NCBI RefSeq assembly: GCF_900176485.1
Contig: NZ_FWYD01000013.1
Location: forward strand, 1 to 64,000
Direction of reading: 5' to 3'
DNA: 64,000 nucleotides
From: Primorskyibacter flagellatus
Lineage (GTDB): Bacteria > Pseudomonadota > Alphaproteobacteria > Rhodobacterales > Rhodobacteraceae
Below the pieces are notes generated by a model. That model was given only the letters and a program-made list of their open reading frames with translations, made no database searches and was not told the origin of the DNA. This document shows positions 12,048 to 64,000 of this stretch, piece after piece. Made by a program: the position numbers and the translations under genes. The first letter of the stretch is position 1, and every line of letters starts with the position of its first letter.

Positions 12048-12058
12048 CCAAACCACCA

Positions 12059-12085: not shown

Positions 12086-12114
12086 ATCTTCACTTTATGT
12101 GATTGAGAGGCGCC

Positions 12115-46017: not shown

Positions 46018-46018
46018 C

Positions 46019-47710: not shown

Positions 47711-47865
47711 CCGGGGGGTCGGCCCGGTATTCTGGCGGCTTTGAGACCTCTCGCCACATGATCCCCGAGCGCGACAAGTGGCAGGAAGCCGACGCTTGAT
47801 GGCAAAGCCGGACGGGCGCGAGACACAGCCCGTAGCGCAAGAGCAGAGCAGGGCGTGCGTGGCGA

Positions 47866-49962
47866 TCAGGCGCTGGGGTCCGGGGCAGGGGGCAGATCAT
47901 AGATCGCCTTCGTTAGCCATGCGGGCCAGTCGCGTTCGAAGAAGGCTTTGGCCGTGTCGTCGAAAACCCGGTTGGGCCGGGTCGAAATGCCAATGCCCTC
48001 TTTGGTCAAACGCACGAGGATCTGCTGTTCCCCGTCTACGTCCCTTTCACTGCGAAAGCGAAACTCCTCCAATGACCCCGCGCGTGTGTCGGGCAAGCCA
48101 TCGCCGTCGGTGTCGCAAATTGCACGGGCACCCCGGCTGCCGCCGCCCTTGCGGATATAGTGGTCGAGCGCCGCAAGGACCGCCTGCGAGGCCAGCGCCA
48201 TCTGCTGCCATTGCAGGGCGCGGGCAATCTCGGCGGGCCGGTCATAGGCCAGACCGTTTTGGCGAATATCGGCGCAGAGGGCCGTGGCGGCCTTTAGCGC
48301 AGTGCTGACCTGATCGGGGGAGCAGATGATACCTGCGTGATCGCTCATCCTTGCCTGCACGTCGTCGCGGACTTGTCGATAGGGCAGGGGGCTGTCGGGT
48401 TTCAGGATGGCGGCGATCCGGTCCAGAGCATCCGTCACCATATCCGTGATATTGTGCGTCGCTGGGGACGTCGCGCATCCCGTGGCGGCGATATGTTCGG
48501 CCGTGCGGGTGCCAAAGACCTGACCTGCGTTCAGCGCAGCACCGCCCGGACGGGTGGCGCCGTGCGTGCCTGCGGCCTCGCCAATCGCGTAGATGCCGCC
48601 GACAGTGCTGCGGCCCCAGATGTCAACTGCGATGCCGCCATTCATGTGCTGGTTGTTGACGGCAAATTCCAGCGGATCGGCAGCAATATCAACCTTGTAG
48701 CGGCGATAAAGCTCTATCGCGAGCGGGTTCATGTGGCGCAGCCGGTCGATGGGCTGGTCCTGCACCGCGCCTGCTGTGCCCAGATAGGCGCTGACATCTT
48801 CGTCCAGCCGGGTCAGGCTGAACGGCTGATCGCCGGGCACGGGCAGTGGATTGCGGTTGAAGTCCATGAACACGCGCCGCCCCTTCTGGCCCTCGCGAAA
48901 GATGGCAAGGTCAACGAGGCTGGATTTGAAATCCAGCATCCGGCTGGCATGGAACGGCCATTGATAGCCTTTGCGAAAGATGTTCGAGACCATTTCCTGC
49001 GTGGTTCGGAAATACCCGCCAAGGAAATGATGTTCCTGGCCCGCGTCATCGACGGAATAGATATGCGGCATGGATTGCACATAGGTGCCCGACAGGTTCC
49101 ACGGGAAGCCCTCGCGCCTTGTACCGATGCCGAACTGGCTTTCGGTCAGGTTGACCAGATCCAGACCGGCCTCCAGCGCCAGACCCAGCGATCCGAAACA
49201 GCCGTTGGGAAAGACGCTGTCGCGGTAAAGCTCTCCGGGGCCGCCCGCCGCCAGCACCAGCGCGGCGCAGCGAAAGACGACAAGGCCCAGCGGGTTGTCG
49301 GGGGTCTGGGATCTGGGCTGTATCGCAAGGATGCCGACGACATGGCGGGCAGGACCGTCGCCTTGCGTCAGGATCCGGACGGCGGTTGTCTGGTTGAAGA
49401 AGGGAATGCCAAGGCGGATCGCCTCGCGCGCCAGCACCTGCACCATCAGCCGCGATGTGCGCGGCCCGCAGCTTGTGGCGCGGCCAACCTCGTCATGGTC
49501 GGTCTTGTAGCGCAGCGTGCCGCCAAGCGCGTCTTGCGGCAAAGGCAGGCCCAGAAATTGCAGCGACGCCATCGCACGGGTGGAGCCTGTGGCCTCGATA
49601 TAGGCGGTGTCTTCGTCCATCGCGCCGCCCGCGCGGATCGCCCGTGCCATGGCGATGAAATTGTCGCCCTGATCCGAGGTATTGGCGGTGTGCAGCGTCT
49701 GCTTGTCCGACCCGGAACAGGCGGATGTGCCGCCCCAGGCGCTTTGGCTGATGATCGTGACATCGCCGTCCCGGCGGGCCAGCTCGACCGCCGCGCGCAG
49801 GCCCGCGGCGCCACTGCCAACGACGACGCAGCCGCAATTGCGGATCGGGATCGTGTGGCCACTGACCCGGAGGGTTTCAGTAATCTGCGGGGCAGGGGGC
49901 AGGCGCGGCATCTCCACATCGGTCAGCGCGTCAAGAATGTCTTGGGGGATACGGTTGGTCAC
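47866..49962 (-). CDS. FAD-dependent fumarate-reductase-like oxidoreductase
   Basis: About 698 residues with an N-terminal FAD Rossmann motif (CGCVVVGSGAAGLRAAVELARRDGDVTIISQS), the succinate dehydrogenase/fumarate reductase flavoprotein fold through CGPRTSRLMVQVLAREAIRLGIPFFNQT, and HMNGGIAVDIWGRSTVGGIYAIGEAAGTHGATRPGGAALNAGQVFG. Subfamily and substrate unknown. The longest frame starts with TTG at 49998, inside the LacI operator 49985-49998; I favour the GTG at 49962. It is the last gene of the LacI island and has its own operator, so it is under separate control from the main operon. Converges with ccdB. Confidence 0.8.
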   Translation of the reverse strand: MTNRIPQDILDALTDVEMPRLPPAPQITETLRVSGHTIPIRNCGCVVVGSGAAGLRAAVELARRDGDVTIISQSAWGGTSACSGSDKQTLHTANTSDQGDNFIAMARAIRAGGAMDEDTAYIEATGSTRAMASLQFLGLPLPQDALGGTLRYKTDHDEVGRATSCGPRTSRLMVQVLAREAIRLGIPFFNQTTAVRILTQGDGPARHVVGILAIQPRSQTPDNPLGLVVFRCAALVLAAGGPGELYRDSVFPNGCFGSLGLALEAGLDLVNLTESQFGIGTRREGFPWNLSGTYVQSMPHIYSVDDAGQEHHFLGGYFRTTQEMVSNIFRKGYQWPFHASRMLDFKSSLVDLAIFREGQKGRRVFMDFNRNPLPVPGDQPFSLTRLDEDVSAYLGTAGAVQDQPIDRLRHMNPLAIELYRRYKVDIAADPLEFAVNNQHMNGGIAVDIWGRSTVGGIYAIGEAAGTHGATRPGGAALNAGQVFGTRTAEHIAATGCATSPATHNITDMVTDALDRIAAILKPDSPLPYRQVRDDVQARMSDHAGIICSPDQVSTALKAATALCADIRQNGLAYDRPAEIARALQWQQMALASQAVLAALDHYIRKGGGSRGARAICDTDGDGLPDTRAGSLEEFRFRSERDVDGEQQILVRLTKEGIGISTRPNRVFDDTAKAFFERDWPAWLTKAIYDLPPAPDPSA

Positions 49963-49984
49963 AGGGGCAATCCGATCGGGCTTC

Positions 49985-49998
49985 TTGGAACGTTCCAA
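49985..49998. promoter_or_regulatory. LacI-type operator before flavoprotein gene
   Basis: TTGGAACGTTCCAA, perfect 14-bp palindrome. Its 12-bp core TGGAACGTTCCA is identical to the two copies at 63795-63806 and 63815-63826, ahead of the first gene of the island. The size and symmetry fit the LacI protein encoded at 50076-51089, immediately upstream. Confidence 0.85.
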
Positions 49999-50075
49999 TT
50001 ATCGATACACGGCGCGCGGTTTTGCGTCAACCGGGTCGGGATCGGGGTGCTATGCTGCGTGGCGGCGTCTTGACG

Positions 50076-51089
50076 TCATGCGTCCGGGTTGCTGGAGGCG
50101 CGGACCACCAGGTTGACCGGGGTACGGGTCTCGGGCGGGGGCGTCTTGCCGTCTTCGAGCCAGTCGACCACGGTTCTGGCGGCCTGCTGGCCAATCGCGG
50201 CAATGTCGCAACTGACGGAGCTGAGCGCCGGGAAGGTCTGGGCAACCTCTTCGATATCATCAATGCCGACGATGCGAAAATCCGTGCCGACGTTACGCCC
50301 GATTTCATAGCACCCCGACAGCATCCCCAAGGCCACCAGATCGTTGAAGCACAGCGCGGCATCGACGGCAGGATGTTCGTTTGCCAGCGTCTTGGCGGCG
50401 TCTCTGCCGAAGGCGCGCACCGATCGCCCGGTCAGCACGCAAGGCTGCATGTCATGTTCGCGCAACACGTCAAGATAGCCGACCTTGCGCTCTTCGGTGA
50501 CTGTCCGGCCTTCGGGACCGCCGACAAAGGCGATACGGTGCGCGCCCATCCGGATCAGGTGTTCGGTCGCGGCACGGCTGCCCGCGATATAGTCGGGGGC
50601 GGAAAGCGGGAACAGGTCAAACCGTTCGTCCACCCAACGCAGCATTTGCAGGGCAGGGATGCCCGCGCGGGCAATCGCATCGAAGGTCGATGACGGGCCA
50701 TAGGTGGGACACAGGATCAGCGCCGAGACCCCGTGTTCGATCATCGCGCTGACGACCTGTTCCTGCAATTCGGACTTTTCATCGGTATTGGCCATCACGG
50801 CGGAATAGCCACGCTCTGACAGCGCCATCTGAAGCGAGGTGGCGAATTCGGTGAAAAACGGGTTGCGCAGGTCATTGATCACCAGCCCGATCAGGCCCGC
50901 ATTCGAGGAGCGCATATTGGCGGCGGACCGGTTGTAGACATAGCCGATCTGGGCCATCGCGGCGCGCACCTGTTGGCGGGTTTCCTCGCGGACCGAAGGG
51001 CTGTTCTGCAAGACCAGACTGACCGTGGATTTGGACACCCCGGCCTGTTTGGCAACGTCGATGATGGTGGGGCGGCGGGTGACAGTCAT
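50076..51089 (-). CDS. LacI-family transcriptional regulator
   Basis: 337 residues: helix-turn-helix and hinge helix at the N-terminus (PTIIDVAKQAGVSKSTVSLVLQNSPSVREETR; YNRSAANMRSSNA), then the periplasmic-binding-protein-like effector domain (about 60-330: GLIGLVINDLRNPFFTEFATSLQ; RIAFVGGPEGRTVTEER; ALCFNDLVALGMLSGC). It probably represses the island through TGGAACGTTCCA sites and is released by an imported compound or its metabolite. It sits inside the gene run between the Dabb gene and the flavoprotein gene. Confidence 0.92.
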   Translation of the reverse strand: MTVTRRPTIIDVAKQAGVSKSTVSLVLQNSPSVREETRQQVRAAMAQIGYVYNRSAANMRSSNAGLIGLVINDLRNPFFTEFATSLQMALSERGYSAVMANTDEKSELQEQVVSAMIEHGVSALILCPTYGPSSTFDAIARAGIPALQMLRWVDERFDLFPLSAPDYIAGSRAATEHLIRMGAHRIAFVGGPEGRTVTEERKVGYLDVLREHDMQPCVLTGRSVRAFGRDAAKTLANEHPAVDAALCFNDLVALGMLSGCYEIGRNVGTDFRIVGIDDIEEVAQTFPALSSVSCDIAAIGQQAARTVVDWLEDGKTPPPETRTPVNLVVRASSNPDA

Positions 51090-51146
51090 GGTGGTTGGTT
51101 CCCGTAAAGCCCGCCGCCCACCGTCGGGCCCGCCCGGTCAGACGCG

Positions 51147-51165
51147 CCGGGCCTTTGCGGCCCGG
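51147..51165 (-). other. GC-rich hairpin between Dabb and lacI-type genes
   Basis: Perfect 7-bp arms CCGGGCC and GGCCCGG with a 5-base loop, in the 111-base gap after the Dabb gene. No T-tract. It may end the long upstream transcript or protect it. Confidence 0.4.
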
Positions 51166-51200
51166 TCACATTGCCCGATGCGCCGCCCGGCTGCAATTCC

Positions 51201-51515
51201 CTAGTCCGTGACGGGCAGATCGAAGCACAGGATGCCAGCCTTGCCCTGATCCGCATGCTCGGTCAGTTTTGCGCCGATGGCCTGATGGTCGGGGTGATCC
51301 TGATAGGCCTGTAGCCCGTCCCAGTCGCGGAAATCCGCGACAAAGCCGTGCATGTAGCCGCGCTCCATCTGTTCGGGGCTTTCGCTGCGCCCCGAGGTGA
51401 TGCCCAGCAGACCGGGCAGTTTGCCTTCGATCTGGTGAAGCTCTGCAAACAGCTCGGCGATCTTGGCTTCGGTCACGTCAGGGCGGAACCTGATCAATAC
51501 GATATGTCGGATCAT
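51201..51515 (-). CDS. Dabb (stress-responsive alpha/beta barrel) protein
   Basis: 104 residues with the Dabb signature MIRHIVLIRFRPDVTEAKIAELFAELHQI, GITSGRSESPEQMERGYMHGFVADFRDWDGLQAYQDHPDHQAI. Its His-rich HPDHQAI region is typical. Members of the family are small dimers, and some act on keto-acid or polyketide-like substrates; the role here is unknown. It follows the GMC gene by 3 bases, so it is co-transcribed with the island. Confidence 0.86.
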   Translation of the reverse strand: MIRHIVLIRFRPDVTEAKIAELFAELHQIEGKLPGLLGITSGRSESPEQMERGYMHGFVADFRDWDGLQAYQDHPDHQAIGAKLTEHADQGKAGILCFDLPVTD

Positions 51516-51518
51516 CTT

Positions 51519-53108
51519 CTATCCCATTCCATTGTCGGATTTTATCATGTCGGCGGCCTTTTCACCGATCATGATGGCGGCGGCGTTGGTGTTGGACGAA
51601 ATCACCGTTGGCATGATCGAATTGTCAACCACGCGCAGTCCGTCGATCCCGTTGAAGCGCAGCCGCGTATCCACCACGGCGGCGTCATCCGGCCCCATGC
51701 GGCAGGTGCCTGCGCAATGGTGCGAGGTCTTGGCGTGACGGCAGATGAAATCGAAATAGTCCTTGTCGGTCTTCACGTCCGGCCCCGGCAGACGCTCGGC
51801 CAGGATGTATTTGCTCAGCGGCGACTGTGCGAGGATCTCTTGCGTCAGCTTCAGCCCCCGGATCGACATGTCGCGGTCCAGCGGATCTTGCAGGTAGTTC
51901 GGGTCGATCAGCGGGGCCTTGGCCGGATCGGCGCTTTGCAGCCTTACGGTTCCGCGCGAGCGTGGGCGCAGGTAGCAGGAATTCAGCGTGATCCCGCCCT
52001 GCGGCATGGCCGCGACGCCATGTTCGATGCCGGTGCCCAGCCCGAGGTGGAACTGAATATCCGGCGACCGCGCGCTGGGGTCGGCATACCAGAAGCCGCC
52101 GGTTTCAAACAGGGACGAGGCCACCGGCCCCTTGCGCCCAAACAGATATTGCAGCCCGGCAAGCGCCGCCCAGTGCGGCCTGGCGTAGCGGTCATAGCTA
52201 TACGGCCCGCGAAGTTCGCTGATGCAATAGAGGTCCAGATGATCCTGAAGGTTGGCCCCGATCTGCGGCTGATCCTGCACCACGTCGATGCCCAGCGACG
52301 CCAGATGATCCGCCGGACCGATTCCCGAAAGCTGCAACAAGCGCGGCGAGCCGATGGCACCGGAGGACAGGATCACCTCGGCATTTGCAGTCAGGCGCGT
52401 GCCGTCCGCCATTTCAACGCCGGTGGCGCGGCCATTTTCGACGATCAGGCGGCGCACCTGCGCACCCAGCTTCACGGTCAGGTTCGAACGGTGCCGGTTC
52501 GGCGCGACATAGGCCATCGCCGCCGAGGACCGCCGCGCATTGCGTTGCGTCAGTTGGTAATAACAAACACCGTCCTGTTTTTCGCCATTGATGTCCCTGT
52601 TGCGCGGAATACCAAGCTGCGCGGCGGCCTCGAAATAGGCCTCGCAGACCGGCAGGGGCGCGCGCGGTTCGCTGACCCCCAAAGGCCCGCCCTTGCCGTG
52701 AAAGGCGTTGTCATACGTCTCGTTATCCTCGGCCTTGCGGAAATAGGGCAGCACGTCGTCATAGCCCCAGCCGGTGCAACCCATCTGCCGCCAGTCATCG
52801 TAATCCTGAGCATTGCCGCGCGTGTAGATCTGGGCGTTGATCGCCGATCCGCCGCCGATCACCTTGGCCTGCGTGTAGCGAAAGACCTTGTCCTGCATGT
52901 GGCGCTGGGGAACCGTCTCCCAGCCCCAACTGCCAATGCCCTTGGTCATCTTCGCAAACCCGGCGGGCAGGTGGTAGAACGGGTGGCGGTCGCTTCCCCC
53001 CGCGTCCAGCAGCAGCACCTGCGCGGAGGGGTCTTCGGACAGCCGGCCCGCCAGGACGGATCCGGCAGAGCCACCGCCGATGATGATGAAATCGTAGCCT
53101 TTGGGCAT
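51519..53108 (-). CDS. GMC-family FAD oxidoreductase (alcohol/choline dehydrogenase-like)
   Basis: 529 residues, glucose-methanol-choline family. FAD motif at the N-terminus (FIIIGGGSAGSVLAGRLSED), the GMC signature GGGSAINAQIYTRGNAQDYD, SSGAIGSPRLLQLSGIGPADHL, and the catalytic His/Asn region HHCAGTCRMGPDDAAVVDTRLRFNGIDGLRVVDNSIMPTVISSNTNAAAIM. It resembles alcohol and choline dehydrogenases and, like polyethylene-glycol dehydrogenases, would oxidise a primary alcohol to aldehyde. No secretion signal. Second of two unrelated-looking GMC genes in the operon. Confidence 0.92.
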   Translation of the reverse strand: MPKGYDFIIIGGGSAGSVLAGRLSEDPSAQVLLLDAGGSDRHPFYHLPAGFAKMTKGIGSWGWETVPQRHMQDKVFRYTQAKVIGGGSAINAQIYTRGNAQDYDDWRQMGCTGWGYDDVLPYFRKAEDNETYDNAFHGKGGPLGVSEPRAPLPVCEAYFEAAAQLGIPRNRDINGEKQDGVCYYQLTQRNARRSSAAMAYVAPNRHRSNLTVKLGAQVRRLIVENGRATGVEMADGTRLTANAEVILSSGAIGSPRLLQLSGIGPADHLASLGIDVVQDQPQIGANLQDHLDLYCISELRGPYSYDRYARPHWAALAGLQYLFGRKGPVASSLFETGGFWYADPSARSPDIQFHLGLGTGIEHGVAAMPQGGITLNSCYLRPRSRGTVRLQSADPAKAPLIDPNYLQDPLDRDMSIRGLKLTQEILAQSPLSKYILAERLPGPDVKTDKDYFDFICRHAKTSHHCAGTCRMGPDDAAVVDTRLRFNGIDGLRVVDNSIMPTVISSNTNAAAIMIGEKAADMIKSDNGMG

Positions 53109-53156
53109 GTGTCTTTTCCAAAAGAGAGGGCGGCGGGACGGGCAGGGGCCCCGGTG

Positions 53157-54650
53157 TCACGCCGCGAGGTCGGTTTGTGTGATATGCTCTGCCGCGCGGA
53201 TCGCGAGGGCCGCGATGGTCAGCGCAGGGTTGACCGCGCCCGATGTGGGCAGGATCGAGGCGTCCATGACAAACAGGTTGGCGTGGTCATGGCTGCGCCC
53301 GAAACTGTCGGTGACGCTGGTGGCGGGATCATCGCCCATCCGCGCGGTGCCGCATTGGTGCGATGGCGTGCGCCGGTCGAAGGGGCGCGAGACGACGACC
53401 GGATAGCCCGCCTTGCGCAACAGGCGTTTCATCTTGCGCACCAGCGCCACATGGGTGTCCTGGTTCGAGCGTTTCCAATCCAGCACGATCTGGCCGTCTT
53501 TCAGGCTGACACGGCTTTCCGGGTCCGGCAGATCCTCGGACACGGCATATAGATCGACGGACCGTTTTGCGATCCAGTTCGCCAGAACGGCTGGCAGAGC
53601 AGAGGAGGCGCGCAGGATCGGACCCGAGATCTTGCCCAGAAGCTGGATATTGCCAAGCGGTTCGCCACCCGGACCGCCCGTCAGGTAGAAATCGTTTACC
53701 ATCAGTGTCTTCTGGTAAACCGAGGGGTTGGTGCGGAACGGATGCAGGGCCAGGATGGCCGAACTGTTATGGTTCATGAAATTGCGTCCGACCTGATCCG
53801 AGGAATTGGCCAGACCCGTTGGATGCGCCTCATCCGTCGAGGCCAGCAAGAGGGCCGCGCTTTGCACAGCACCTGCGGCAAGGACAACGATCCTGGCAGA
53901 GATCACCTCGCCGGAGGCAAGCTCGACCCCCGTGACCCGGCCCTCTGGTCCGACAAGCACGCGGCTGACCCGGCTATTGGTGCGAAGCGACACGTTGTCA
54001 TGCGCCAGCGCCGCCGCCAGACCGCCGGTTTCGGCGTCCAGCTTGCCGCCGGATGTGTTGGGATAGGCGTCCCAAGGTGTGCTGGCCCGCGACAGCCACC
54101 GGTCAAGATCGACGCCAAGCGGGAGAGAAGCAGGATGCAATCCAACGGCTGACAGCCTGCGTCGCAGATCAGAGATCGCGGGTTCGTCCGGGACGGGGCC
54201 GAAGGAGTAGTCCGTGGAATGGGCAGGCTCTGTCGGGTCGCAGCCTGTCTGGCCGCGCACCGCGTAAAGCTGTTCGGCCTTGCCGTAATAGGGCTCTAGG
54301 TCGTTATAGCGGATCGGCCAGCCCGGCGTGGTGCCGCCAATATGGCGCAGCGGGCTGAAATCCTCGGCGCGGTAGCGCAGCAGCACCGCACCATAGAATT
54401 TGGAATTGCCGCCGACATAGTAGTAATTGCCGGGATTGAACGGCTTGCCAGCGCCGTCCAGCCATTGTTCATCCGGGCGGTAGTGGCCCTTGGCAAAGAT
54501 CGCCTCGGCATCGCGGTCATGGGCAGAGGGGCGCAGGTGATCGCCGCGTTCCAGAATGAGGATACGGCGACCGGACGGTGCGAGCGCAGCCGCAAGCGTG
54601 GCCCCGCCCATGCCGGATCCGACAATGACGATGTCTGCCTGCTGGTGCAT
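53157..54650 (-). CDS. GMC-family oxidoreductase, sugar/glycoside oxidase-like branch
   Basis: 497 residues. N-terminal FAD motif (DIVIVGSGMGGATLAAALAPSGRRILILERGD), then NYYYVGGNSKFYGAVLLRYRAEDF, which is the branch seen in pyranose oxidase-like and glycoside 3-oxidase-like proteins. The C-terminal catalytic His/Asn lie in HQCGTARMGDDPATSV and SGAVNPALTIAALA. It differs clearly from the neighbouring GMC, so the two likely act on different positions or steps. No signal peptide or Tat motif is seen. It starts right after the ATPase stop. Confidence 0.88.
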   Translation of the reverse strand: MHQQADIVIVGSGMGGATLAAALAPSGRRILILERGDHLRPSAHDRDAEAIFAKGHYRPDEQWLDGAGKPFNPGNYYYVGGNSKFYGAVLLRYRAEDFSPLRHIGGTTPGWPIRYNDLEPYYGKAEQLYAVRGQTGCDPTEPAHSTDYSFGPVPDEPAISDLRRRLSAVGLHPASLPLGVDLDRWLSRASTPWDAYPNTSGGKLDAETGGLAAALAHDNVSLRTNSRVSRVLVGPEGRVTGVELASGEVISARIVVLAAGAVQSAALLLASTDEAHPTGLANSSDQVGRNFMNHNSSAILALHPFRTNPSVYQKTLMVNDFYLTGGPGGEPLGNIQLLGKISGPILRASSALPAVLANWIAKRSVDLYAVSEDLPDPESRVSLKDGQIVLDWKRSNQDTHVALVRKMKRLLRKAGYPVVVSRPFDRRTPSHQCGTARMGDDPATSVTDSFGRSHDHANLFVMDASILPTSGAVNPALTIAALAIRAAEHITQTDLAA

Positions 54651-55763
54651 TCACGACACCCGTTCTTCGGTCTTGGGATCGAAGGCCACGGCCTTTTCCA
54701 TGTTGATCGCAAAGGGGAATGTCTGACCGGGATGCACATCCACATCGGCGCGGAAACGACCCGTCACCTCCTTGCCGCCGAGTTGGGTGCTGACGAACGT
54801 GTCGGACCCGGCAGGCTCGGTGATGTCGACATGGGCGTCGATGACATGCACCGACTGGCTGTTGCGGTCGGCGCCGTCGCGATCGGTGATGGCCTCGGGG
54901 CGCAGGCCCAGAATGATTTCGCGGCCATCGTGACGCTCAAAACCGCGTGCATCAGGGAAGGGCAGGGTGGCGTCCTGACCGTCGGCAAGTTTCGCCTTGG
55001 CCACGGCCTTGCCATTTTCGACCGCGATTTTCGCCGGAAACAGGTTCATCGACGGCGAGCCCATGAAGCCCGCGACGAACATGTTGGCGGGGTTGTCATA
55101 GACCTCTTTCGGGGTGCCAAGCTGCTGGACATGGCCGCCAAACATCACCGCGATACGGGTCGACAGGGTCAGCGCCTCGATCTGGTCATGGGTGACATAG
55201 ACGATGGTGGTCTTCAGCTTCTGATGCAGTTTCTTGATCTCGGTGCGCATGTCCACGCGCAGCTTGGCATCGAGGTTGGACAAGGGTTCGTCGAACAGGA
55301 ACACATCCGGATCGCGCACCAGTGCCCGACCCATGGCGACACGTTGGCGCTGGCCGCCCGACAACTGACCGGGTTTGCGGTCCAGCAGATGCTTGATCTG
55401 CAAGAGGTCGGCCACCTTGTTCATCGCCGTGTCGCGCTCTGGCTTGGGGACGCCGTGCATTTCCAGACCGAAAACGATGTTCTGCCCGACATTCATGTTG
55501 GGGTAGAGGGCATAGGACTGGAACACCATCGCGATGTTGCGATCCGCCGGACGGACCCCGGCCATTGACTGGCCCTTGATGGCAATGTCGCCGGTGGTGA
55601 TCTCCTCCAGCCCGGCGATCATGTTCAAAAGCGTGGACTTGCCGCAGCCGGAGGGACCGACCAGCACCAGAAACTCGCCTTCTTCGATCGAGATGTCGGT
55701 TTCATGCAGCACCTTGACCGCGCCGTAGGATTTGGTCGCGTTCTTGATATCGAGAAAACCCAT
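54651..55763 (-). CDS. sugar-type ABC transporter ATP-binding protein (UgpC/MsmK-like)
   Basis: 370 residues. Nucleotide-binding domain with Walker A GPSGCGKST, signature LSGGQRQRVAMGRALV, Walker B VFLFDEPLSNLD, and the long C-terminal regulatory domain (about 240-370) usual for CUT1 ATPases. It powers the importer formed by the permeases at 55768-56649 and 56649-57548 and the binding protein at 57609-58859. Confidence 0.95.
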   Translation of the reverse strand: MGFLDIKNATKSYGAVKVLHETDISIEEGEFLVLVGPSGCGKSTLLNMIAGLEEITTGDIAIKGQSMAGVRPADRNIAMVFQSYALYPNMNVGQNIVFGLEMHGVPKPERDTAMNKVADLLQIKHLLDRKPGQLSGGQRQRVAMGRALVRDPDVFLFDEPLSNLDAKLRVDMRTEIKKLHQKLKTTIVYVTHDQIEALTLSTRIAVMFGGHVQQLGTPKEVYDNPANMFVAGFMGSPSMNLFPAKIAVENGKAVAKAKLADGQDATLPFPDARGFERHDGREIILGLRPEAITDRDGADRNSQSVHVIDAHVDITEPAGSDTFVSTQLGGKEVTGRFRADVDVHPGQTFPFAINMEKAVAFDPKTEERVS

Positions 55764-55767
55764 CGGA

Positions 55768-56649
55768 TTATCCTTTCACAGATCCGGCCATCAGCCCGCG
55801 AACGAAGTAGCGGCCAGCGACGATATAGACGAGGAGGGTGGGCAGGGCGGCCATGATGGCGCCCGCGAAATGCACGTTGTATTCCTTCACACCCGTCGAG
55901 GATTGCACGAGATTGTTCAGCGCCACGGTCATCGGCTGGCTGTCGAAATCCGAGAACGAGGCCCCGAACAGGAAGTCGTTCCAGATATTGGTGAATTGCC
56001 AGATGACGCAGACCACGGCGATCGGCCCGGATGAGGGCAGCATGATGCGCCGGAAGATGGTGAAGAACCCCGCGCCGTCGATCATTGCCGCGCGCACCAG
56101 TTCGGTCGGGAATTGCTGGTAGTAGTTGCGGAAATACAGCGTCGAAAAGCCGATGCCGTAGACGAGGTGGACAAAGACCAGCCCCGGCACGGTGCCCGCA
56201 AGCCCGACAAGGCCCAGCATCCGCGCCATCGGGATCAGCACCATCTGGAACGGGATGAAGCAGCCGAACAGCAGCAGCCCGAAGATGATCGTATCGCCGC
56301 GGAACCGCCATTTGGTCAGCACATAGCCATTGAGCGCGCCCAGCACGGTCGAGATCGCAACCGCCGGGACCACCATGACGATGGAGTTCCAGAAAAACGG
56401 GCGCAGGCCGGTGGCCTCGACCCCGATCTGTGCCGTCGACCAGGCGCTTTTCCAGGGTGCCAGCGTCCAGACGTCGGGCAGGGCCATCATGCCCCCCGCT
56501 TGAATTTCACTAAGCGGTTTGAGCGAGTTGACCACCATCACATAAAGCGGCAGCAGGTAGTACAGGCAGAACAGCGCCAGAAGCGTGTAGATGACAAAGC
56601 GCGATCCGGCGCCGGTGCGGACCACGGTTGCGGTTGCATTGCTGGACAT
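55768..56649 (-). CDS. carbohydrate ABC transporter permease (MalG-like)
   Basis: 293 residues, about six membrane helices. It has the MalG-type EAA loop (QQFPTELVRAAMIDGAGFFTIFRRIMLPSSGP). Start at 56649 overlaps the stop of the upstream permease (TGATG). A frame open much farther upstream (to 57108) is a shadow. Confidence 0.93.
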   Translation of the reverse strand: MSSNATATVVRTGAGSRFVIYTLLALFCLYYLLPLYVMVVNSLKPLSEIQAGGMMALPDVWTLAPWKSAWSTAQIGVEATGLRPFFWNSIVMVVPAVAISTVLGALNGYVLTKWRFRGDTIIFGLLLFGCFIPFQMVLIPMARMLGLVGLAGTVPGLVFVHLVYGIGFSTLYFRNYYQQFPTELVRAAMIDGAGFFTIFRRIMLPSSGPIAVVCVIWQFTNIWNDFLFGASFSDFDSQPMTVALNNLVQSSTGVKEYNVHFAGAIMAALPTLLVYIVAGRYFVRGLMAGSVKG

Positions 56650-57548
56650 CACGACTTCTCCCGCAGTTCGGAGTAGATGTAGGGCACCATGATCGCGGCA
56701 ATCGCCATCAGCATGATCGTGGCCGAGGCCGCACCGATGCCCATCTGGTTGCGCGTGAACGTGTAGGAATACATGAAGGTGGCGGGGACTTCGGTGGACG
56801 TGCCCGGCCCGCCGCCTGTCAGGGCGATGACAAGGTCGTAGGACTTGATCGCCATATGCGCCAGAACCACGAAGGCCGACATGAAGGCGGGGCGCAGTTG
56901 CGGAATGACGATCCGGCGGTAAAGCGCGAAATTCGACGCCCCGTCGATCTGGGCGGCTTTCAGCACCTCGTTGTCGATGCCGCGCAGGCCCGCCAGAAAC
57001 ATCGCCATGACAAAGCCCGAGGTTTGCCAGACGGCCGCGATGACGATGGTATAGATCGCCATGTCGCCATCCTTGATCCAGTCGAAGGTGAAGCTTTCCC
57101 AGCCCCAACTGCGGATGACCGCCTGCAAACCGATGCCCGGATCAAGGAACCACTTCCACGCGGTCCCGGTGACGATGAACGACAGCGCCATCGGGTAGAG
57201 GTAAATGGTGCGGATGAAACCTTCTGCGCGGATTTTCTGATCCAGCAGGATCGCCAAGGCCAGCCCCAGTGCGCAGCAGATCACGATATACAGAGAGCCG
57301 AAAATCAACAGGTTGGTGATCGCCGTGTCCCAAGCGCGGATGCGGAACAGTTTGGAATAGTTTTCCCAGCCCACAAGGTCGAAAGAGGGCAGGATGCGGC
57401 TGTCGGTGAAGGACAGATAGAAGGTGAAGATGATGAAGCCGTAGACGAAAATCAGAACCATCGCCAGACTTGGACTGAGAACCAGTTTCGGCAACGCTTC
57501 ACGCAGCCAGTCATTGCCGCCGCGGCGGTTTCGGGCAACCTGTGCCAT
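56649..57548 (-). CDS. carbohydrate ABC transporter permease (MalF-like)
   Basis: 299 residues, about six membrane helices, EAA loop RGIDNEVLKAAQIDGASNFALYRRIVIPQLRP. GGAGA precedes the start. An UUCG-capped hairpin (57572-57595) lies between it and the binding-protein gene. Confidence 0.93.
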   Translation of the reverse strand: MAQVARNRRGGNDWLREALPKLVLSPSLAMVLIFVYGFIIFTFYLSFTDSRILPSFDLVGWENYSKLFRIRAWDTAITNLLIFGSLYIVICCALGLALAILLDQKIRAEGFIRTIYLYPMALSFIVTGTAWKWFLDPGIGLQAVIRSWGWESFTFDWIKDGDMAIYTIVIAAVWQTSGFVMAMFLAGLRGIDNEVLKAAQIDGASNFALYRRIVIPQLRPAFMSAFVVLAHMAIKSYDLVIALTGGGPGTSTEVPATFMYSYTFTRNQMGIGAASATIMLMAIAAIMVPYIYSELREKS

Positions 57549-57571
57549 GGCACGTCTCCAATTGATTGGAT

Positions 57572-57595
57572 GGGAAAGCGCCGAAGCGCTTTCCC
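57572..57595 (-). other. intercistronic UUCG hairpin
   Basis: Perfect 10-bp arms GGGAAAGCGC and GCGCTTTCCC. Read on the minus strand the loop is UUCG closed by C-G, the extra-stable tetraloop class. It follows the binding-protein gene and precedes the first permease gene, as in many importer operons where it stabilises the upstream message. Confidence 0.7.
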
Positions 57596-57608
57596 GCAGG
57601 CACGTCGA

Positions 57609-58859
57609 TTACTTCGAGATATCGACGGCTGTGACCAGTTCCTCTACCGCTGTCGCGGAGTCGAACTCGCCGTTGAAATGCGCGGTAATCACGTCATACA
57701 TGGCGTTCTTGACCGAGGCCGGGTTGGCATGGCCATGCCCCATCGAGCCAAGAAGGTTGCCGCTGGCATCGGCTGCCTTGAAGTCCTCGTAGGCGCGCTG
57801 GCCGCAAGCATCAAGCTCGCTTGCATCCAGATCTGTCCGCGCCGGAACAGAGCCTTTCACCTTGTTGAAGGCGATCTGGAATTCCGGCGACATGATGGCA
57901 TTGGCCAGTGCGGCCTGCTCGTCCGACACGCCTTCGCCCTGCGAGAACATGGCGAATTGGTCAGAGTTGAAGGTCACCTGATCCTGGCTGCCGGGGAAAC
58001 GGAAGCAGAGAAAATCCTCGCCGGGGACTTTGCCCGCGTTCAGGAATTCGCCCTTGGCCCAGTCGCCCATCAGCTGGAACGCCGCTTCCTTGTTGATCAC
58101 CATCGCGGTCGCAAGGTTCCAGTCTCGGCCCGAGAAGTTGTCATCGACAAAGCTGCGCAGCGTGGCCATGCGGTCGAAGACCTCTTTCATCTGATCGGAA
58201 CCGAGCGCCTCTGCGTCGAGGTCGATCATTGATGCCTGATAGAATTCCGGGCCGCCGACAGCCAGCACGACGCCGTCAAAGAAAGTGGCTTCCTGCCAGG
58301 CCTGACCCCCATGCGCGAGTGCCACGTATCCGGCATCCTTGGCCGCCTGAAGGGCCGCGACGAATTCGTTCCATGTCTGCGGCTCTTCCAGGCCAAGTTC
58401 GTCCATGATGGCCTTGTTCGCCCAGACCCAGTTGGTGGAATGCACGTTCACCGGGGCCGCGACCCACTGGCCGTCATAGGTCGAGAATTTCTGAAGCGCG
58501 GCGGGCACCACATCATTCCATCCGCCTTCTTCGGCGATGTCGTTGAGGTTGGCAAGCGCGCCTTCCTTGGCCCAGTCGGTGATGTCAAAGCCCAGCATCT
58601 GCACGGCTGTGGGCGGGTTGCCGGAGGTGACGCGCGCGCGCAGCACGGTCATTGCCTGCGTGCCGCCGCCACCGGCCACCGGCATGTCCTGCCAGCCGAT
58701 ATCCTGACCCGACAGATCGTCCTTCAGCACGTTCAGCGCCGAGGCTTCGCCACCGGATGTCCACCAGTGCAGCACTTCGACATCCGCCGCCTGCGCCATG
58801 CCGGCCGTGGCCAGAAACGCTGCGGCAAGTGCCGTTTTTCCACCAAAATATTTATGCAT
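57609..58859 (-). CDS. sugar ABC transporter substrate-binding protein
   Basis: 416 residues, CUT1-type periplasmic binding protein. Signal peptide ([14 protein letters not shown]), then [24 protein letters not shown], the start typical of glucose/mannose-type binding proteins of this family, plus [34 protein letters not shown]. The start at 58859 (MHKYFGGK) has GGGAGG upstream; seven more codons to 58880 are not supported. It is probably selective for a sugar or glycoside; exact ligand unknown. Confidence 0.93.
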
Positions 58860-58910
58860 TAGGTAACCTCCCATATTCACTTTTGTTTTCTGACGACCGC
58901 CGCGGCGGTG

Positions 58911-60437
58911 TCAGGCCGTCTTCACCCAAGGTGCCCTGCTGCGTCCGATGCGCATGACCAGTGATTTTACCTCAAGGAATTCTTCAAATCCGTAACGTCC
59001 GATCTCTCTCCCTTGTCCCGACTCCTTCATCCCGCCGAACGCAACTTCAGGAAATCCGTCCATCCATGTGTTGGTCCAGACCGTTCCCGCCTGCGCTTTG
59101 CGGGCAAAGGCAAGACAGGTGTGGACGTTTTCGCTCCAGACGCCCGCAGACAAACCGTAGGTCGAGTCATTTGTCAGAGCAACAGCTTCGTCGAAATCGC
59201 GGAATGTCAGTACGGTCAGGACAGGGCCGAAGACCTCCTCGCGGGCAATTGCCATGTCGGGCGTCACGCCGCGCACAATGGTTGGCTGGTAGAATTGATC
59301 GCCCAGCCCCGGCACATTCAGGATGCCGCCGCCCAGGCAGAGTTCGGCCCCCGCGTCGACGGCGTCCTTGACGTAGCCGTCGATCTTGGCCTGATGATCG
59401 GCGGTCACGATGGCCCCGACCTGGGTGTCAGGATGCATCGGATTGCCGAACACCACCTTGCGCGACAGGGCGACGACACGGGCTATGAAATCACCCGCGA
59501 TGTCTTCGTGCACGATGATCCGGCTGGATGAATTGCAGCACTGGCCGACGTTGAAATACACGCCGAAGGTCACGGCATCGGCAGCAGAGTCCAGTTCGGC
59601 ATCGGCAAAGATCACCTGCGGGTTCTTGCCGCCAAGCTCCAGCGCGACTTTCTTGAGCGTTTCGCCCGCCGATTTGGTGATCGTCTTGCCCACGGCGGTG
59701 GACCCGGTGAACGTCACCATGTCCACATCCCGGTGGGTGCTGAGCAGGCTGCCGACCGGCGTCCCGTAGCCCAGCACAATGTTGCAGACGCCGGCAGGCA
59801 GACCTGCCTCTTGCAGCATCTCGCCCAGCATGGCGGTGGTCGAGGGGGTCATTTCTGACGGTTTGACCACGCAGGTACATCCGGCGGCCAGCGCGAAGGG
59901 CAGTTTCTGGCTGAGGATCCAGAACGGAAAATTCCACGGCGTGATGATCGAGACAACGCCGATTGGCTCCTTGAGGACCATCCCGAGAATATCCTCGCCC
60001 AGCGTGTTGTGGCTGTCGCCATGAGACGTGCGGGCCAGCGAGGCCGCATAGCGCCACAGGTCCGCCGCGCCGCCGCATTCGCCGCGCGATTGCGAAATCG
60101 GTTTGCCGCTTTCCAGCGTTTCGATCACGGCGAGCCGCTCTTCGTTCTGTTCGATCAGGTCGGCGACCTTGTTCAGAACCGCCGCACGATCCTTGGCCGA
60201 CAGGCCGCTCCAGCGGCCATCGTCAAATGCGGTGCGGGCGGCGTTGATCGCGGCCTCGGCCTCGGCCTCTGACCCAACTGCGGCCTGACTGACAACAATG
60301 CCATGCGAGGGCGAGACGCGGTCCGATTTCCGGCCATCGGCGCTGTCGGTGAAGGTGCCGTTGATGAAATGCCGGGCCTGATAGGGCGTTTGCGGCATGT
60401 CGACGGTCTGTTCCGAAAGAATATTGAGATCCAGCAT
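58911..60437 (-). CDS. aldehyde dehydrogenase (betaine-aldehyde-dehydrogenase-like)
   Basis: 508 residues, NAD(P)-dependent aldehyde dehydrogenase. The catalytic Glu motif LELGGKNPQ and Cys motif FNVGQCCNSSSR are present; other signatures are ITPWNFPFWILSQKLPFALAAGCTCVVKPSE and EEVFGPVLTVLTF. It would oxidise the aldehyde made by a GMC enzyme to the acid. It starts 3 bases after the upstream stop; GGGAAG is upstream. Confidence 0.93.
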   Translation of the reverse strand: MLDLNILSEQTVDMPQTPYQARHFINGTFTDSADGRKSDRVSPSHGIVVSQAAVGSEAEAEAAINAARTAFDDGRWSGLSAKDRAAVLNKVADLIEQNEERLAVIETLESGKPISQSRGECGGAADLWRYAASLARTSHGDSHNTLGEDILGMVLKEPIGVVSIITPWNFPFWILSQKLPFALAAGCTCVVKPSEMTPSTTAMLGEMLQEAGLPAGVCNIVLGYGTPVGSLLSTHRDVDMVTFTGSTAVGKTITKSAGETLKKVALELGGKNPQVIFADAELDSAADAVTFGVYFNVGQCCNSSSRIIVHEDIAGDFIARVVALSRKVVFGNPMHPDTQVGAIVTADHQAKIDGYVKDAVDAGAELCLGGGILNVPGLGDQFYQPTIVRGVTPDMAIAREEVFGPVLTVLTFRDFDEAVALTNDSTYGLSAGVWSENVHTCLAFARKAQAGTVWTNTWMDGFPEVAFGGMKESGQGREIGRYGFEEFLEVKSLVMRIGRSRAPWVKTA

Positions 60438-60440
60438 GCG

Positions 60441-61208
60441 TTATCTTCCCGAGAAGTCTGGTTTGCGTTTGGCGCGAAAGGCGGCCACGCCCTCCGCCCG
60501 GTCCTCCGTCGCGGCGATTGCGGCGCTCCCCAAGGCTTCGACCATGGCGGCCCGGTCCTCGTCCTGCGCGGCGTGGATCATCGACTTTGCAATCTCGACC
60601 GCGCGGGGCGACAGGGTGATCGCGCGTTCCAGCAGCGTTTCCGCCACCGTGCGAGGATCAGGGTCCACAGCCGCGACAAAGCCGCAGGCCAGCGCACGGT
60701 CCGCCTTGATGCGGTTGCCGAACAGCGCCATTTCCTTGACCATCGGTTCCGGCAGCAGACGCAACAGACGTTGCGTGCCTGACCATCCGGGGACGATCCC
60801 GACGCCCGCTTCGGGCAGGGCGAGTGCGGCTTTGGGGGCCATCACGCGGATGTCGCAGGCGGCGGCAAGTTCCAGCCCGCCGCCAAAGGCATGGCCTTGC
60901 ATGGCCGCGACGGTGGGTTTTGACAGGCGCGCCAGCCGGTCGAATATCCGGTGGCCGTCGCGTACCCAGTGGCGGGCAAATTCGGCGGAGCCAAGATCGC
61001 CCCATCCGTTGATGTCGGCACCGGTGCAGAAAGCGCGGTCGCCCTCGGCGGTCAGGATTAGGGCGGCAATCGTGGTGTCCCGTTCGATCACCTCAAGATG
61101 CGCGGCCAGTTGGTCCAGCATCTGGACAGTAAAGGCGTTCATCTTGGCGGGATTGTCCAAGCGCAGCTCTGCGATTGCGCCGTGTTGGATGAGGTGAACG
61201 GTGCTCAT
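60441..61208 (-). CDS. enoyl-CoA hydratase/isomerase family protein
   Basis: 255 residues of the crotonase fold. The oxyanion-hole region GHAFGGGLELAAACDIRVM is followed by LPEAGVGIVPGWSGTQRLLRLLP. Both crotonase catalytic Glu positions (GGGLELA and LPEAGVG) are kept, compatible with hydratase activity. Start at 61208 overlaps the CoA-transferase stop. It acts on a CoA thioester, presumably produced by the CoA-transferase upstream. Confidence 0.9.
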   Translation of the reverse strand: MSTVHLIQHGAIAELRLDNPAKMNAFTVQMLDQLAAHLEVIERDTTIAALILTAEGDRAFCTGADINGWGDLGSAEFARHWVRDGHRIFDRLARLSKPTVAAMQGHAFGGGLELAAACDIRVMAPKAALALPEAGVGIVPGWSGTQRLLRLLPEPMVKEMALFGNRIKADRALACGFVAAVDPDPRTVAETLLERAITLSPRAVEIAKSMIHAAQDEDRAAMVEALGSAAIAATEDRAEGVAAFRAKRKPDFSGR

Positions 61209-62776
61209 TGCCCCCATCCCATCGGCGCATCCGCCAGCAGCGAGAGTGGCAACGTGATCGCATCCCCGGCAAGTGTCACGCGGCCGCCGGACGCTTCGAC
61301 AATGTCGCGCGCCGGATCAATACCGGGCATGATTTCGGTGGCGACCAGACCGGTTTCGCCAAGGCGCATGACGCAACGCTCTGTGATATAGAGAACCTCT
61401 TGTCCCAGCTTGCGGGCGCGGGCACCCGAGAAGGTCACATGTTCGACCGCTTCGACCATCTTGGTGAATTTGCCCGGTGCCTCGACCTTGATGCCTTGGT
61501 CGGACAGGGCAATCTGCGCGCCGGCCTCGAACCAGCCCGAGAACACGATTTTCTTCGCGCCAGAGGTGATGTCGACAAAGCCGCCACACCCCGCGGTGAG
61601 GTAAGGTTTCTTGCCCAGTTTCGAGACGTTGACATTGCCTTCCACATCCACCTCCAGGAAGGACAGGAAGGACACGTCAAAGCCGCCGCCCTGAAAATAG
61701 ATGAATTGCTGCGGGGAGGGCACGAAAGCGTCGGCATTCGATGCACAGCCAAAGGCGAAGCCGGTCAGGGGCACGCCGCCCACGGCACCTTGTTCCACCG
61801 CCCATGTCACCGCGTCAGGGTGGCCTTCTTCCAGCAGGATGCGCGGCACCATGGCACTGATCCCGAAGCCGAGATTTGCGGTCATGCCCGGCTTCAGCTC
61901 CATCGCGGCGCGGCGGGCGATGATCTTCTCGACACCGGGTTCGGCATACGCAAAACTGTCCCAAGGACGCATGACCTGACCGGAAATCGCCGGATCGTAG
62001 GGCGTTTCGCAGGTCTGTTTCTGATCGGGGTCGATGACGACCAGATCCACCAGATGCCCCGGCACCCGGACGTCATGCGGACGCAGCGAGCCGCGCTTGG
62101 TGACCTGGCTGACCTGCGCGATGACCAACCCGCCGTGATTGCGCACGCAGATCGCCTGTTCCAGCCCGCCCAGATATGCGCCTTCGTGTTCATAGGTCAG
62201 GTTGCCGTGTTCATCCGCAGTGGTGGCGCGCAGGATCGCCACGTTCGGCACGATATTGGGGAAGTGCAGCCAGGTGTCGCCATCGAACTCCACGCGCCTG
62301 ACGATCGGGGCCTCGGCGCCGCGGTCGTTCATCGCACAGCCTTCGCGGACCGGATCGACAAACGTGTCCATCCCCACCTTGGTCAGCACGCCGGGCCGGT
62401 TGGCCGCCGCTTCGCGGGTCATGTCGAACAGGATGCCGGAAGGCACGTTATAGGCAGCGACGCGGTTTTCGACCACCATGCGCCAGATCTCTGGCATCGG
62501 CTTTGACGACGGGCCGGACGGGTAGGAACCGCCCAGGATACGCGCCAAAAGCCCATCCTTGGCAATATGATCGACGCCTTTCACCCCGTACATGTCGCCC
62601 GCAGCAATCGGATGTATGCTGGTCAGGTTTGTCGGGTGGCCTTCGGCGTCGAAACGCGCGCCGAGCGCCTTCAACACCAGATCCGGGCATCCGAGGGCGG
62701 AGGAGGACGACACTGTCAGCGTGGCGCCGTCGGGGATTTTAGCGGCGGCATGTTCCGCGCTGGTGACCTTGGTCAT
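61205..62776 (-). CDS. acyl-CoA:acid CoA-transferase family I (YdiF-like)
   Basis: 523 residues: alpha and beta halves fused in one chain, as in YdiF-type propionate/acetate CoA-transferases. The catalytic Glu is E328 in the motif AVEQGAVGGVPLTGFAFG. Other signatures are PDGATLTVSSSSALGCPD in the first half and CGGFVDITSGAKKIVFSGWF in the second. It would transfer CoA to an acid made in this pathway. Its start overlaps the oxidoreductase stop (ATGA), so the first three genes are translationally coupled. Confidence 0.92.
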   Translation of the reverse strand: MTKVTSAEHAAAKIPDGATLTVSSSSALGCPDLVLKALGARFDAEGHPTNLTSIHPIAAGDMYGVKGVDHIAKDGLLARILGGSYPSGPSSKPMPEIWRMVVENRVAAYNVPSGILFDMTREAAANRPGVLTKVGMDTFVDPVREGCAMNDRGAEAPIVRRVEFDGDTWLHFPNIVPNVAILRATTADEHGNLTYEHEGAYLGGLEQAICVRNHGGLVIAQVSQVTKRGSLRPHDVRVPGHLVDLVVIDPDQKQTCETPYDPAISGQVMRPWDSFAYAEPGVEKIIARRAAMELKPGMTANLGFGISAMVPRILLEEGHPDAVTWAVEQGAVGGVPLTGFAFGCASNADAFVPSPQQFIYFQGGGFDVSFLSFLEVDVEGNVNVSKLGKKPYLTAGCGGFVDITSGAKKIVFSGWFEAGAQIALSDQGIKVEAPGKFTKMVEAVEHVTFSGARARKLGQEVLYITERCVMRLGETGLVATEIMPGIDPARDIVEASGGRVTLAGDAITLPLSLLADAPMGWGQ

Positions 62777-63777
62777 GCGATTTCCTCGTATTTCAGCGTC
62801 TGGCGTTGGCCAGTACGGGCGGAGGTACGAACGGCCATGGCGACCTGTAGCGATTTTATACCGTCCAGACCCGTGGCCGCAGGCGTGCCATCGCCTGCCA
62901 CGGCCTCACAGAACCGGCGTACGGATTCGTCGTAGAGGTTGTGGTTGTCGAACGGCACGGGTTTGCGTCCGGCGGCTGTGACCATTTCGATTTCGCCCTC
63001 CGGGTCCTGACCCATGACGCCCTTGGCAAAGATCGACCCCTCGGTTCCGTGTATTTCGATGCCCGACCCGGCGAAGGGGTGGGTGAAGCTTTCGTGGCTC
63101 ATCACCATCGCGCCCGACGGCATGGTCCAGACCGACATTGCCGAATCCTCGACCCCCTTGCCCATACCGGACACGCCCATCTGGGCCGCGACATCCTGTG
63201 GGTCTTCGCCGAGGATGAACCGCACGAGGTCGGCGTTATGCACAGTAATATCGGGGATCACCCCGCCGCCTGCGTCCGGATTGTCCAGCCGCCAGCCGCG
63301 CAGCCCTTCGGGCAGATGCACGGCATGAAACACGCGCATGGACAGAACCCGACCGATAGCATTGTCGCGGATCAGGGACCGGATCGCCCGGTGGCTTCCG
63401 GCGCAGCGCAGATGGTGGTTGGTCGCAAAGACGACACCGGCAGCCTTGGCCGCGCGTACCATCGCAGTTGCGCCCTCAATGGTGGTGGACAAGGGCTTTT
63501 CACACAAGACATGCTTGCCGGCGGCAATTGCTGCGATTGCTTGCGACTGGTGTTTTTCGTTCGTGGACGAAATGTAGACAGCGTCAATCGACGGGTCGCG
63601 CAACGCCTCATCCAAATCCGACGTGGCACCGGGGATATCGTTCTGTCGCGCATATTCCGCCGCGCGCTCCTGCGAGCCGCTGACAACCCAGGATACCCGA
63701 CCCGCGCCCTGCGCACGGATGGCGCCTATCATGTAGTCGCGTGCAATGGTGCTTGCGCCGATGAGTACCCAGTTCAC
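62773..63777 (-). CDS. Gfo/Idh/MocA-family oxidoreductase
   Basis: 334 residues, NAD(P)-dependent sugar/inositol-type dehydrogenase. N-terminal Rossmann start (VLIGASTIARDYMIGAI), then DAVYISSTNEKHQSQAIAAIAAGKHVLCEKPLSTT, the family EKP motif, and in the second half GGGVIPDITVHNADLVRFILGEDP. The ORF open from 63807 begins inside the operator; I favour the GTG at 63777, with GGGAGG 6 bases upstream. First gene of the LacI-controlled operon. It would oxidise or reduce a cyclic or open-chain polyol or sugar. Confidence 0.9.
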   Translation of the reverse strand: MNWVLIGASTIARDYMIGAIRAQGAGRVSWVVSGSQERAAEYARQNDIPGATSDLDEALRDPSIDAVYISSTNEKHQSQAIAAIAAGKHVLCEKPLSTTIEGATAMVRAAKAAGVVFATNHHLRCAGSHRAIRSLIRDNAIGRVLSMRVFHAVHLPEGLRGWRLDNPDAGGGVIPDITVHNADLVRFILGEDPQDVAAQMGVSGMGKGVEDSAMSVWTMPSGAMVMSHESFTHPFAGSGIEIHGTEGSIFAKGVMGQDPEGEIEMVTAAGRKPVPFDNHNLYDESVRRFCEAVAGDGTPAATGLDGIKSLQVAMAVRTSARTGQRQTLKYEEIA

Positions 63778-63794
63778 GATAGCCTCCCGCATTT

Positions 63795-63806
63795 TGGAAC
63801 GTTCCA
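63795..63806. promoter_or_regulatory. LacI-type operator, proximal
   Basis: TGGAACGTTCCA, perfect palindrome, 18 bases before the preferred start of the first operon gene. Identical to 63815-63826 and to the core of 49985-49998. Confidence 0.85.
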
Positions 63807-63814
63807 TAAGTTAG

Positions 63815-63826
63815 TGGAACGTTCCA
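63815..63826. promoter_or_regulatory. LacI-type operator, distal
   Basis: TGGAACGTTCCA, exact copy of the neighbour. Centre-to-centre distance is 20 bp, near two helical turns, so two dimers could sit on the same face of the DNA. Confidence 0.85.
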
Positions 63827-63923
63827 GTTTTAGTCAAGAGAGAATCTGATGCCACGCTAATCGGGTGCCGCAGGCTTGCGCGAGGCACTGTCGCGCTTGC
63901 TCAAGCTGTTTGCGAAGTCAGCC

Positions 63924-64000
63924 CTATGTGCGCAGGTCTCTGGCAGCGACCAGCAGAGACGCCAACACCATGAGTGAGATCAATCCGAATCCGACTGTGA
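63924..64000 (-). CDS. possible C-terminal end of a membrane protein, cut by window
   Basis: On the minus strand the last 77 bases read as 24 residues ending at a TAG: VGFGLISLMVLASLLVAARDLRT, a hydrophobic segment followed by a charged tail, as at the end of a transporter. The rest lies beyond the window. An alternative plus-strand start (ATG at 63970, MSEINPNPTV) also runs off the edge with a poor ribosome site. Low confidence either way. Confidence 0.3.
   Translation of the reverse strand, partial: TVGFGLISLMVLASLLVAARDLRT

Follow-up and report, generated by a model that had tools for sequence, protein, structure and literature searches.

Three identical palindromes at two putative promoters point to a local LacI-family regulon of a catabolic gene cluster

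Three identical copies of the palindrome TGGAACGTTCCA frame a run of minus-strand genes that extends from position 63777 down to 47866 of the window, the 64,000-nt stretch of DNA analysed here. Two copies stand in tandem ahead of the first gene of the run, one stands ahead of the last gene, and a LacI-family regulator is encoded in between (Table 1). We consider it very probable, on the basis of the sequence and its relatives, that these copies are the operators of a local, negatively acting regulon, in which the regulator encoded at 50076–51089 would repress both promoters of the cluster. A first-pass annotation of this DNA had taken the three copies as strong evidence of a local regulon. That interpretation is supported here: uniqueness in the genome, co-occurrence with the LacI orthologue, the sites at operon fronts, the layout and a unique recognition helix all agree with it.

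Table 1. Coordinates of the putative promoters, the operators and the genes of the cluster in the window.
Feature	Position	Strand	Remark
-35-like box TTGACT, main operon promoter	63832..63837	-	From sequence and conservation in relatives
Operator 1, TGGAACGTTCCA	63815..63826		Within the 18-bp spacer from -35-like to -10-like box
-10-like box TAACTT, weak (3/6 matches)	63808..63813	-	Between both operators
Operator 2, TGGAACGTTCCA	63795..63806		Over the expected transcription start, upstream of GTG 63777
-35-like box TTGACG, second promoter	50025..50030	-	17-bp spacer; from sequence
-10-like box TATCGA, second promoter	50002..50007	-	3/6 matches; from sequence
Operator 3, TGGAACGTTCCA	49986..49997		Over the expected start of the second promoter
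Gfo/Idh/MocA oxidoreductase, first gene	62773..63777	-	Likely start GTG 63777, GGGAGG ahead; listed ORF starts at 63807
Fused CoA-transferase, FadX/YdiF-like	61205..62776	-	
Enoyl-CoA hydratase family	60441..61217	-	
Aldehyde dehydrogenase	58911..60437	-	
Sugar-type ABC solute-binding protein (SBP_bac_1)	57609..58880	-	
ABC permease 1	56649..57548	-	
Putative ABC permease 2	55768..56670	-	Part of ORF 55768–57108, start approximate; lies between permease 1 and ATPase
ABC ATPase, MalK/UgpC type	54651..55763	-	
GMC oxidoreductase 1	53157..54650	-	Nearest solved chains: bacterial glucose and fructose dehydrogenases
GMC oxidoreductase 2, choline-dehydrogenase-like	51519..53108	-	
Dabb-domain protein	51201..51515	-	
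LacI-family regulator	50076..51089	-	Recognition helix SKSTVSLVLQ, hinge Ala-Asn-Met-Arg
FAD-binding (fumarate-reductase/aspartate-oxidase-like) oxidoreductase, last gene	47866..49962	-	Likely start GTG 49962; lies after operator 3

The observation of three identical palindromes is confirmed. The two tandem copies have their centres at 63800.5 and 63820.5, 20 bp apart as the annotation had reported, and the core ahead of the last gene extends to a perfect 14-bp palindrome at 49985–49998, also as described. The bases that flank the three copies are unlike each other. Many random copies genome-wide had been named as the finding that would speak against a local regulon; scanning the complete genome (4,414,152 bases in 73 contigs), we found exactly three exact copies, all inside the window. 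By chance, 0.01 copies would be expected per window and about 0.2 per genome (the latter from the base composition of the window), and three copies occurred in none of 100 dinucleotide shuffles. When up to one mismatch was allowed, the genome contained ten places including the three exact ones, compared with seven for a reversed control pattern; the remaining seven places, no more numerous than the control matches, therefore look like background, and we rejected them as further members of the regulon in the genome. The one place among these seven whose surroundings were inspected, TGGATCGTTCCA at C26:216593, carries a change that is also seen in relatives and sits within an FtsE-like reading frame (named by eye). 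The operator string TGGAACGTTCCA was absent from the literature searched, a search with RegPrecise and supplements outside its scope.

Analysing a family set of 394 genomes, the window's own included, we detected a close orthologue of the LacI regulator (E ≤ 1e-90) in 52 genomes and the exact 12-mer in 75. The 12-mer was present in 35 of the 52 genomes with the orthologue versus 40 of the 342 without it (Fisher p = 6e-17, or 2e-16 once the window's genome is removed from the cell with both), which leaves 17 genomes with the regulator only and 302 with neither. The rate in genomes without the orthologue is similar to that of the reversed control pattern, which occurred in 41 of the 394. At least two copies were found in 22 of the 52 genomes with the orthologue compared with 3 of the 342 without, and one of these three (G212) has them at the same operon front. 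In the one further genome of the genus that was searched (G001), both the orthologue and the 12-mer are absent. A scan of genome contigs yielded 32 loci, with a regulator 56–71% identical to that of the window in 31 and 36% identical in the remaining one (L033).

Conservation extends to the position of the sites. Out of 59 stretches (the window, 51 others chosen by their regulator and 7 chosen by the motif), 16 had no readable operon front; in the other 43 fronts, a site with at most two mismatches was present in 42 and a pair or more in 35. Four of the 43 (L155, L156, L158 and L159) were motif-chosen. Excluding these, the LacI-anchored fronts, window included, have a site in 38 of 39 cases and a pair in 31 of 39; with the window also excluded, the counts are 37 and 30 of 38. 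By contrast, 179 control palindromes made of the same half-site letters matched a mean of 0.28 of the 43 fronts, two at most, and never formed a pair. The single miss was the front of L112 (genome G255), in which no site was found; the motif-chosen stretch L156 of the same genome has a pair at an operon head. Among the 17 orthologue genomes in which the exact 12-mer is absent, 11 have near matches (at most two mismatches) in the cluster; ten have them at the front of the operon, and G252 has its match ahead of GMC1, its front lying outside the stretch; the stretches of the other six are without a readable front. Single operators at the second promoter are also conserved in relatives. Relatives share the layout of the cluster, and the regulon is found again elsewhere in Rhodobacterales as well as in Hyphomicrobiales. 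Some relatives have an operator between the ATPase and GMC genes as well (at 11662 in L131, 11571 in L128 and 7609 in L135), as if an extra promoter there were under the same regulator.

These data bear on the simplest alternative, namely that the identical palindromes are a coincidence without a regulatory role. The motif comprises merely 12 bases and its flanks differ among the three sites, as such a coincidence might look. However, three copies were found where 0.01 (window) and about 0.2 (whole genome) were expected, and sites occupy the same place in 38 of 39 LacI-anchored fronts. Given genome uniqueness, co-occurrence, the fronts and the shuffles, we rejected a chance origin, the probability of which we regard as negligible.

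Where the operators lie relative to the genes depends on the start codons. In the list of open reading frames, the start codons of the first and the last gene fall within operators; the sequence and the starts of relatives make GTG 63777 and GTG 49962 the likely ones, which places the operators upstream of both genes. Read on the minus strand, the putative main promoter consists of TTGACT, five bases, operator 1, eight bases that include TAACTT, operator 2, GGGAGG and the GTG at 63777. The order at the putative second promoter is TTGACG, 17 bases, TATCGA, four bases and operator 3, with the GTG start at 49962. A strict sigma-70 scan of 47700–64000 called neither promoter and returned two sites elsewhere, with 3.2 expected by chance, so that the predicted boxes rest on their position and conservation.

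Conservation of the boxes was assessed in the 35 paired fronts, four of which were motif-chosen. A -35-like box matching at least five of six bases precedes operator 1 in 27 of the 35 pairs versus 2.9% of 175 shifted controls, and one matching at least four of six does so in 32 of 35 versus 31% of the controls. TTGACN stands 1–7 bp before operator 1 in 25 of the 35 pairs, at 4–5 bp in 16. The spacing between centres is 20–25 bp in 31 pairs (about 21–22 bp in most relatives, 20 bp in the window) and 31–34 bp in four, and no pair falls at 26–30 bp. At the second promoter of L104, neighbouring operators are 26 and 64 bp apart. The placement of operator 1 between the boxes, the two spacing classes of relatives about one helical turn apart and the wider recurrence go beyond the first-pass annotation.

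Tandem sites of this kind have precedent. Ravcheev et al. 2014 (PMC4052901) describe multiple sites before approximately 20% of regulated operons; the spacings between them peak at 13, 22 and 32 bp, and the 22- and 32-bp peaks are taken as co-operative binding. The paired fronts have two sites per promoter at about 22 or 32 bp, with 20 bp in the window; being near these peaks, the arrangement is a known one that is here very consistent. Because identical palindromes are complementary to each other, the pair could also be read as an inverted repeat that acts as a hairpin or terminator, and 63794–63827 is indeed listed as a terminator-like stem on the plus strand with a TTTT tail. This we regard as extremely improbable: terminator-like sites numbered 5 compared with 13.0 expected by chance, the T tail is on the plus strand whereas the cluster and the gene upstream are both on the minus strand, and the conserved sites at the second promoter are single.

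Under the operator reading that we favour, the 50076–51089 regulator would bind each TGGAACGTTCCA palindrome as a dimer. Two dimers at the main promoter would lie adjacent on one face of the DNA, filling the gap between the -35-like and -10-like boxes and covering the transcription start, which would leave RNA polymerase unable to bind or open this promoter. To judge from family knowledge and from their position, binding to the two sites may be co-operative. The second promoter, situated in the gap that separates the last gene from the regulator gene, would be blocked by a third dimer over its start. Family knowledge further leads us to expect that a small effector molecule, formed from the sugar-like compound that is imported, releases the repressor. 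In the 111 bases upstream of the regulator gene (51090–51200), we found no operator-like site at up to two mismatches and no promoter-like site in the sigma-70 scan; the regulator gene is thus probably transcribed from the main promoter and represses itself through it, as its position and the habits of the family suggest. The same 111 bases contain a strong inverted repeat that is rich in G+C and lacks a T run; it could reduce the yield of regulator from the operon message.

Alternatively, the regulator might activate transcription from these sites or play a dual role there. Action in both directions is described or predicted for some members of the LacI family (Ravcheev et al. 2014, PMC4052901), and the -10-like boxes are weak, as where promoters need help. 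However, proteins bound at operator 1, between the boxes, and at operator 2, over the expected start, should block polymerase, and we therefore consider activation improbable and repression the better reading.

The regulator itself is encoded within the island, in agreement with the first-pass annotation. Its LacI-type helix-turn-helix (HTH) matches PF00356 with 63.5 bits against a cut-off of 27 (residues 8–52), and its C-terminal effector domain, which resembles periplasmic binding proteins, matches PF13377 (96.1 bits) and PF00532 (94.7 bits), both over their cut-offs. Helix and base positions are numbered here according to Camas et al. 2010 (PMC2978694), who pair AA-15/16 with NT-5/NT-4 and AA-20 with NT-6, and associate a central CG with a hydrophobic hinge residue. 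The regulator can be compared at the same positions and shares the last feature: its hinge reads AANMR, its orthologues have Met or Leu at that place (read by eye), and TGGAACGTTCCA is an even palindrome with a central CG, which is kept in 69 of the 70 sites of the 35 paired fronts, sites that were chosen for motif likeness. The code of Camas et al. 2010 (PMC2978694) is limited to the TVSR majority, in which an Arg at AA-20 accompanies G at NT-6. The regulator studied here differs from that class in having Leu at AA-20 and T at NT-6. SKSTVS is kept in all 52 orthologue helices; AA-20 is Leu in 51 of them and Asn in one (L149), the operator of which retains T at NT-6.

A recognition helix of this kind also helps to decide which protein reads the operators. 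The genome encodes 14 LacI-type HTHs (E ≤ 0.001), and in several relatives another LacI gene lies within the cluster or close to it, so the operators could be real but mainly bound by a different LacI-family paralogue, with the LacI of the cluster acting elsewhere. However, Lys-Ser at AA-15/16 together with Leu at AA-20 occurs in one of the 14 HTHs, that of the 50076–51089 regulator, and in none of the other 13. Moreover, the 12-mer tracks the cluster's LacI over the 394 genomes, and the few relatives whose helices are changed have different operators. A paralogue as the main binder is thus quite improbable, and we retain the cluster's own regulator as the candidate.

More distant clusters that carry similar enzyme kinds bear on the link between helix and operator. 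Regulators 39–40% identical to that of the window, with the Lys-Ser helix, go with exact TGGAACGTTCCA in two cases, Sinorhizobium meliloti pSymB (L182) and Rhizobium sp. ACO-34A (L198); in a third, L191, the helix goes with TGGAACGTTCTA, one mismatch away. Helix RAAVSL (L033) goes with TAGATCGTTCTA, found twice, helix KATVSL (L195) with TAGACCGTTCTA and helix ATTVSF (L196) with TAAATCGTTTTA. The operators of the changed helices were picked by eye among CG-centred palindromes, from five candidates in L033, eight in L195 and one in L196, and a perfect palindrome of another kind in L033 was left unpicked. Since these cases are three single genomes with eye-picked operators, the link between helix change and operator change is suggestive only. 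L206 has the Lys-Ser helix, and no matching palindrome was found within its available flank. A search for changed helices in 39 genomes of one family found only a regulator that was already included, and a class-wide search of 385 genomes returned 13 regulators, four of them from genomes already represented.

A broader reading is tentative and, in our estimate, may well prove wrong: the regulator would belong to a separate LacI recognition class, with Leu at AA-20 and Lys-Ser at AA-15/16, that reads TGGAAC with T at NT-6 and in which AA-16 sets NT-5 (Ser with G, Ala with A), and it would govern an undescribed CoA-dependent sugar-like catabolic pathway on plasmids and chromosomes of Rhodobacterales and Hyphomicrobiales.

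Some relatives have a second, distant LacI gene with Arg at AA-20 and VT, VA or IT at AA-15/16, mostly beside transporter genes (16947–17999 in L198, 16865–17914 in L197 and 16960–17895 in L203, with hits also in L114, L128, L130, L131, L135, L145 and L147). Different palindromes, TGCAACGTTACA, TGAAACGTTACA and TGTAACGTTTCA, lie ahead of the binding-protein gene in L197, L198 and L203. The window has no room for a second LacI gene between the aldehyde dehydrogenase and binding-protein genes.

The regulation is ordinary in kind, that of a local regulon of the LacI family that is well conserved and has phased tandem operators. Among the systems in Ravcheev et al. 2014 (PMC4052901), the tandem-operator regulons of RafR (Enterobacteriales) and ScrR (Burkholderiales) are alike by description: they share the even palindrome with central CG, paired sites (spaced about 21–22 bp in most relatives here) and a sugar-type operon that is controlled locally, its regulator being encoded in the cluster, as is the case for the regulator gene here, in or beside the operon that it is predicted to control. 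The present cluster differs in its CoA-transferase, enoyl-CoA hydratase and GMC oxidoreductases. GapR, a regulator of central carbohydrate metabolism described in the same source (PMC4052901), is likewise a LacI-family protein of Rhodobacteraceae; going by that description, it is set apart as global, with 5–13 operons, whereas the exact sites of the regulator studied here number three and are confined to two places of a single cluster. The cluster and its regulator offer a testable operator–regulator pair for a catabolic cluster that recurs in Rhodobacterales and Hyphomicrobiales. A promoter–reporter fusion would allow a screen for the inducer, and the inducer in turn would give a lead on the pathway. 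As a helix without Arg at AA-20, that of the regulator also adds a case to the LacI recognition code beyond the class that has been studied well.

The gene content suggests sugar-type import and breakdown, that is, a catabolic cluster. It is plausible that the GMC enzymes oxidise an alcohol, that the aldehyde dehydrogenase continues to the acid and that CoA activation and a beta-oxidation-like step follow. Among the best 25 NCBIfam matches listed for each of ten cluster proteins, none reached its cut-off, relatives of the cluster proteins in the PDB were general only, and our literature search on the gene combinations of the cluster and on DUF993 found no matching paper. Permease 2 occupies the position of an annotated carbohydrate permease in relatives. 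Additional genes in the clusters of relatives encode a short-chain dehydrogenase, a DUF993 protein, a glycerate kinase and another protein of the Gfo/Idh/MocA type. On the four plasmids inspected (S. meliloti, Sinorhizobium, Rhizobium and Sagittula), the CoA-transferase/hydratase core is accompanied by other transporters and a regulator of the TetR type. In these (L199, L200, L201 and L202), the core is joined by GMC and aldehyde dehydrogenase genes and another sugar ABC importer, with the TetR-type regulator replacing LacI, and in most of them by glycerate kinase or DHDPS-family genes. The cluster adjoins two genes at 44614–47110, of which the first encodes a ParA-like ATPase domain and the next, without a Pfam match, reads like a ParB/RepB partner; the contig may be a plasmid or chromid. 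Directly upstream of the operon lies an MFS-transporter-like gene on the same strand, past which are sarcosine-oxidase-like and serine-hydroxymethyltransferase-like genes, named by reading their translations (L163, contig C34 from position 60000; intervals 3925–5505 and 6593–13104).
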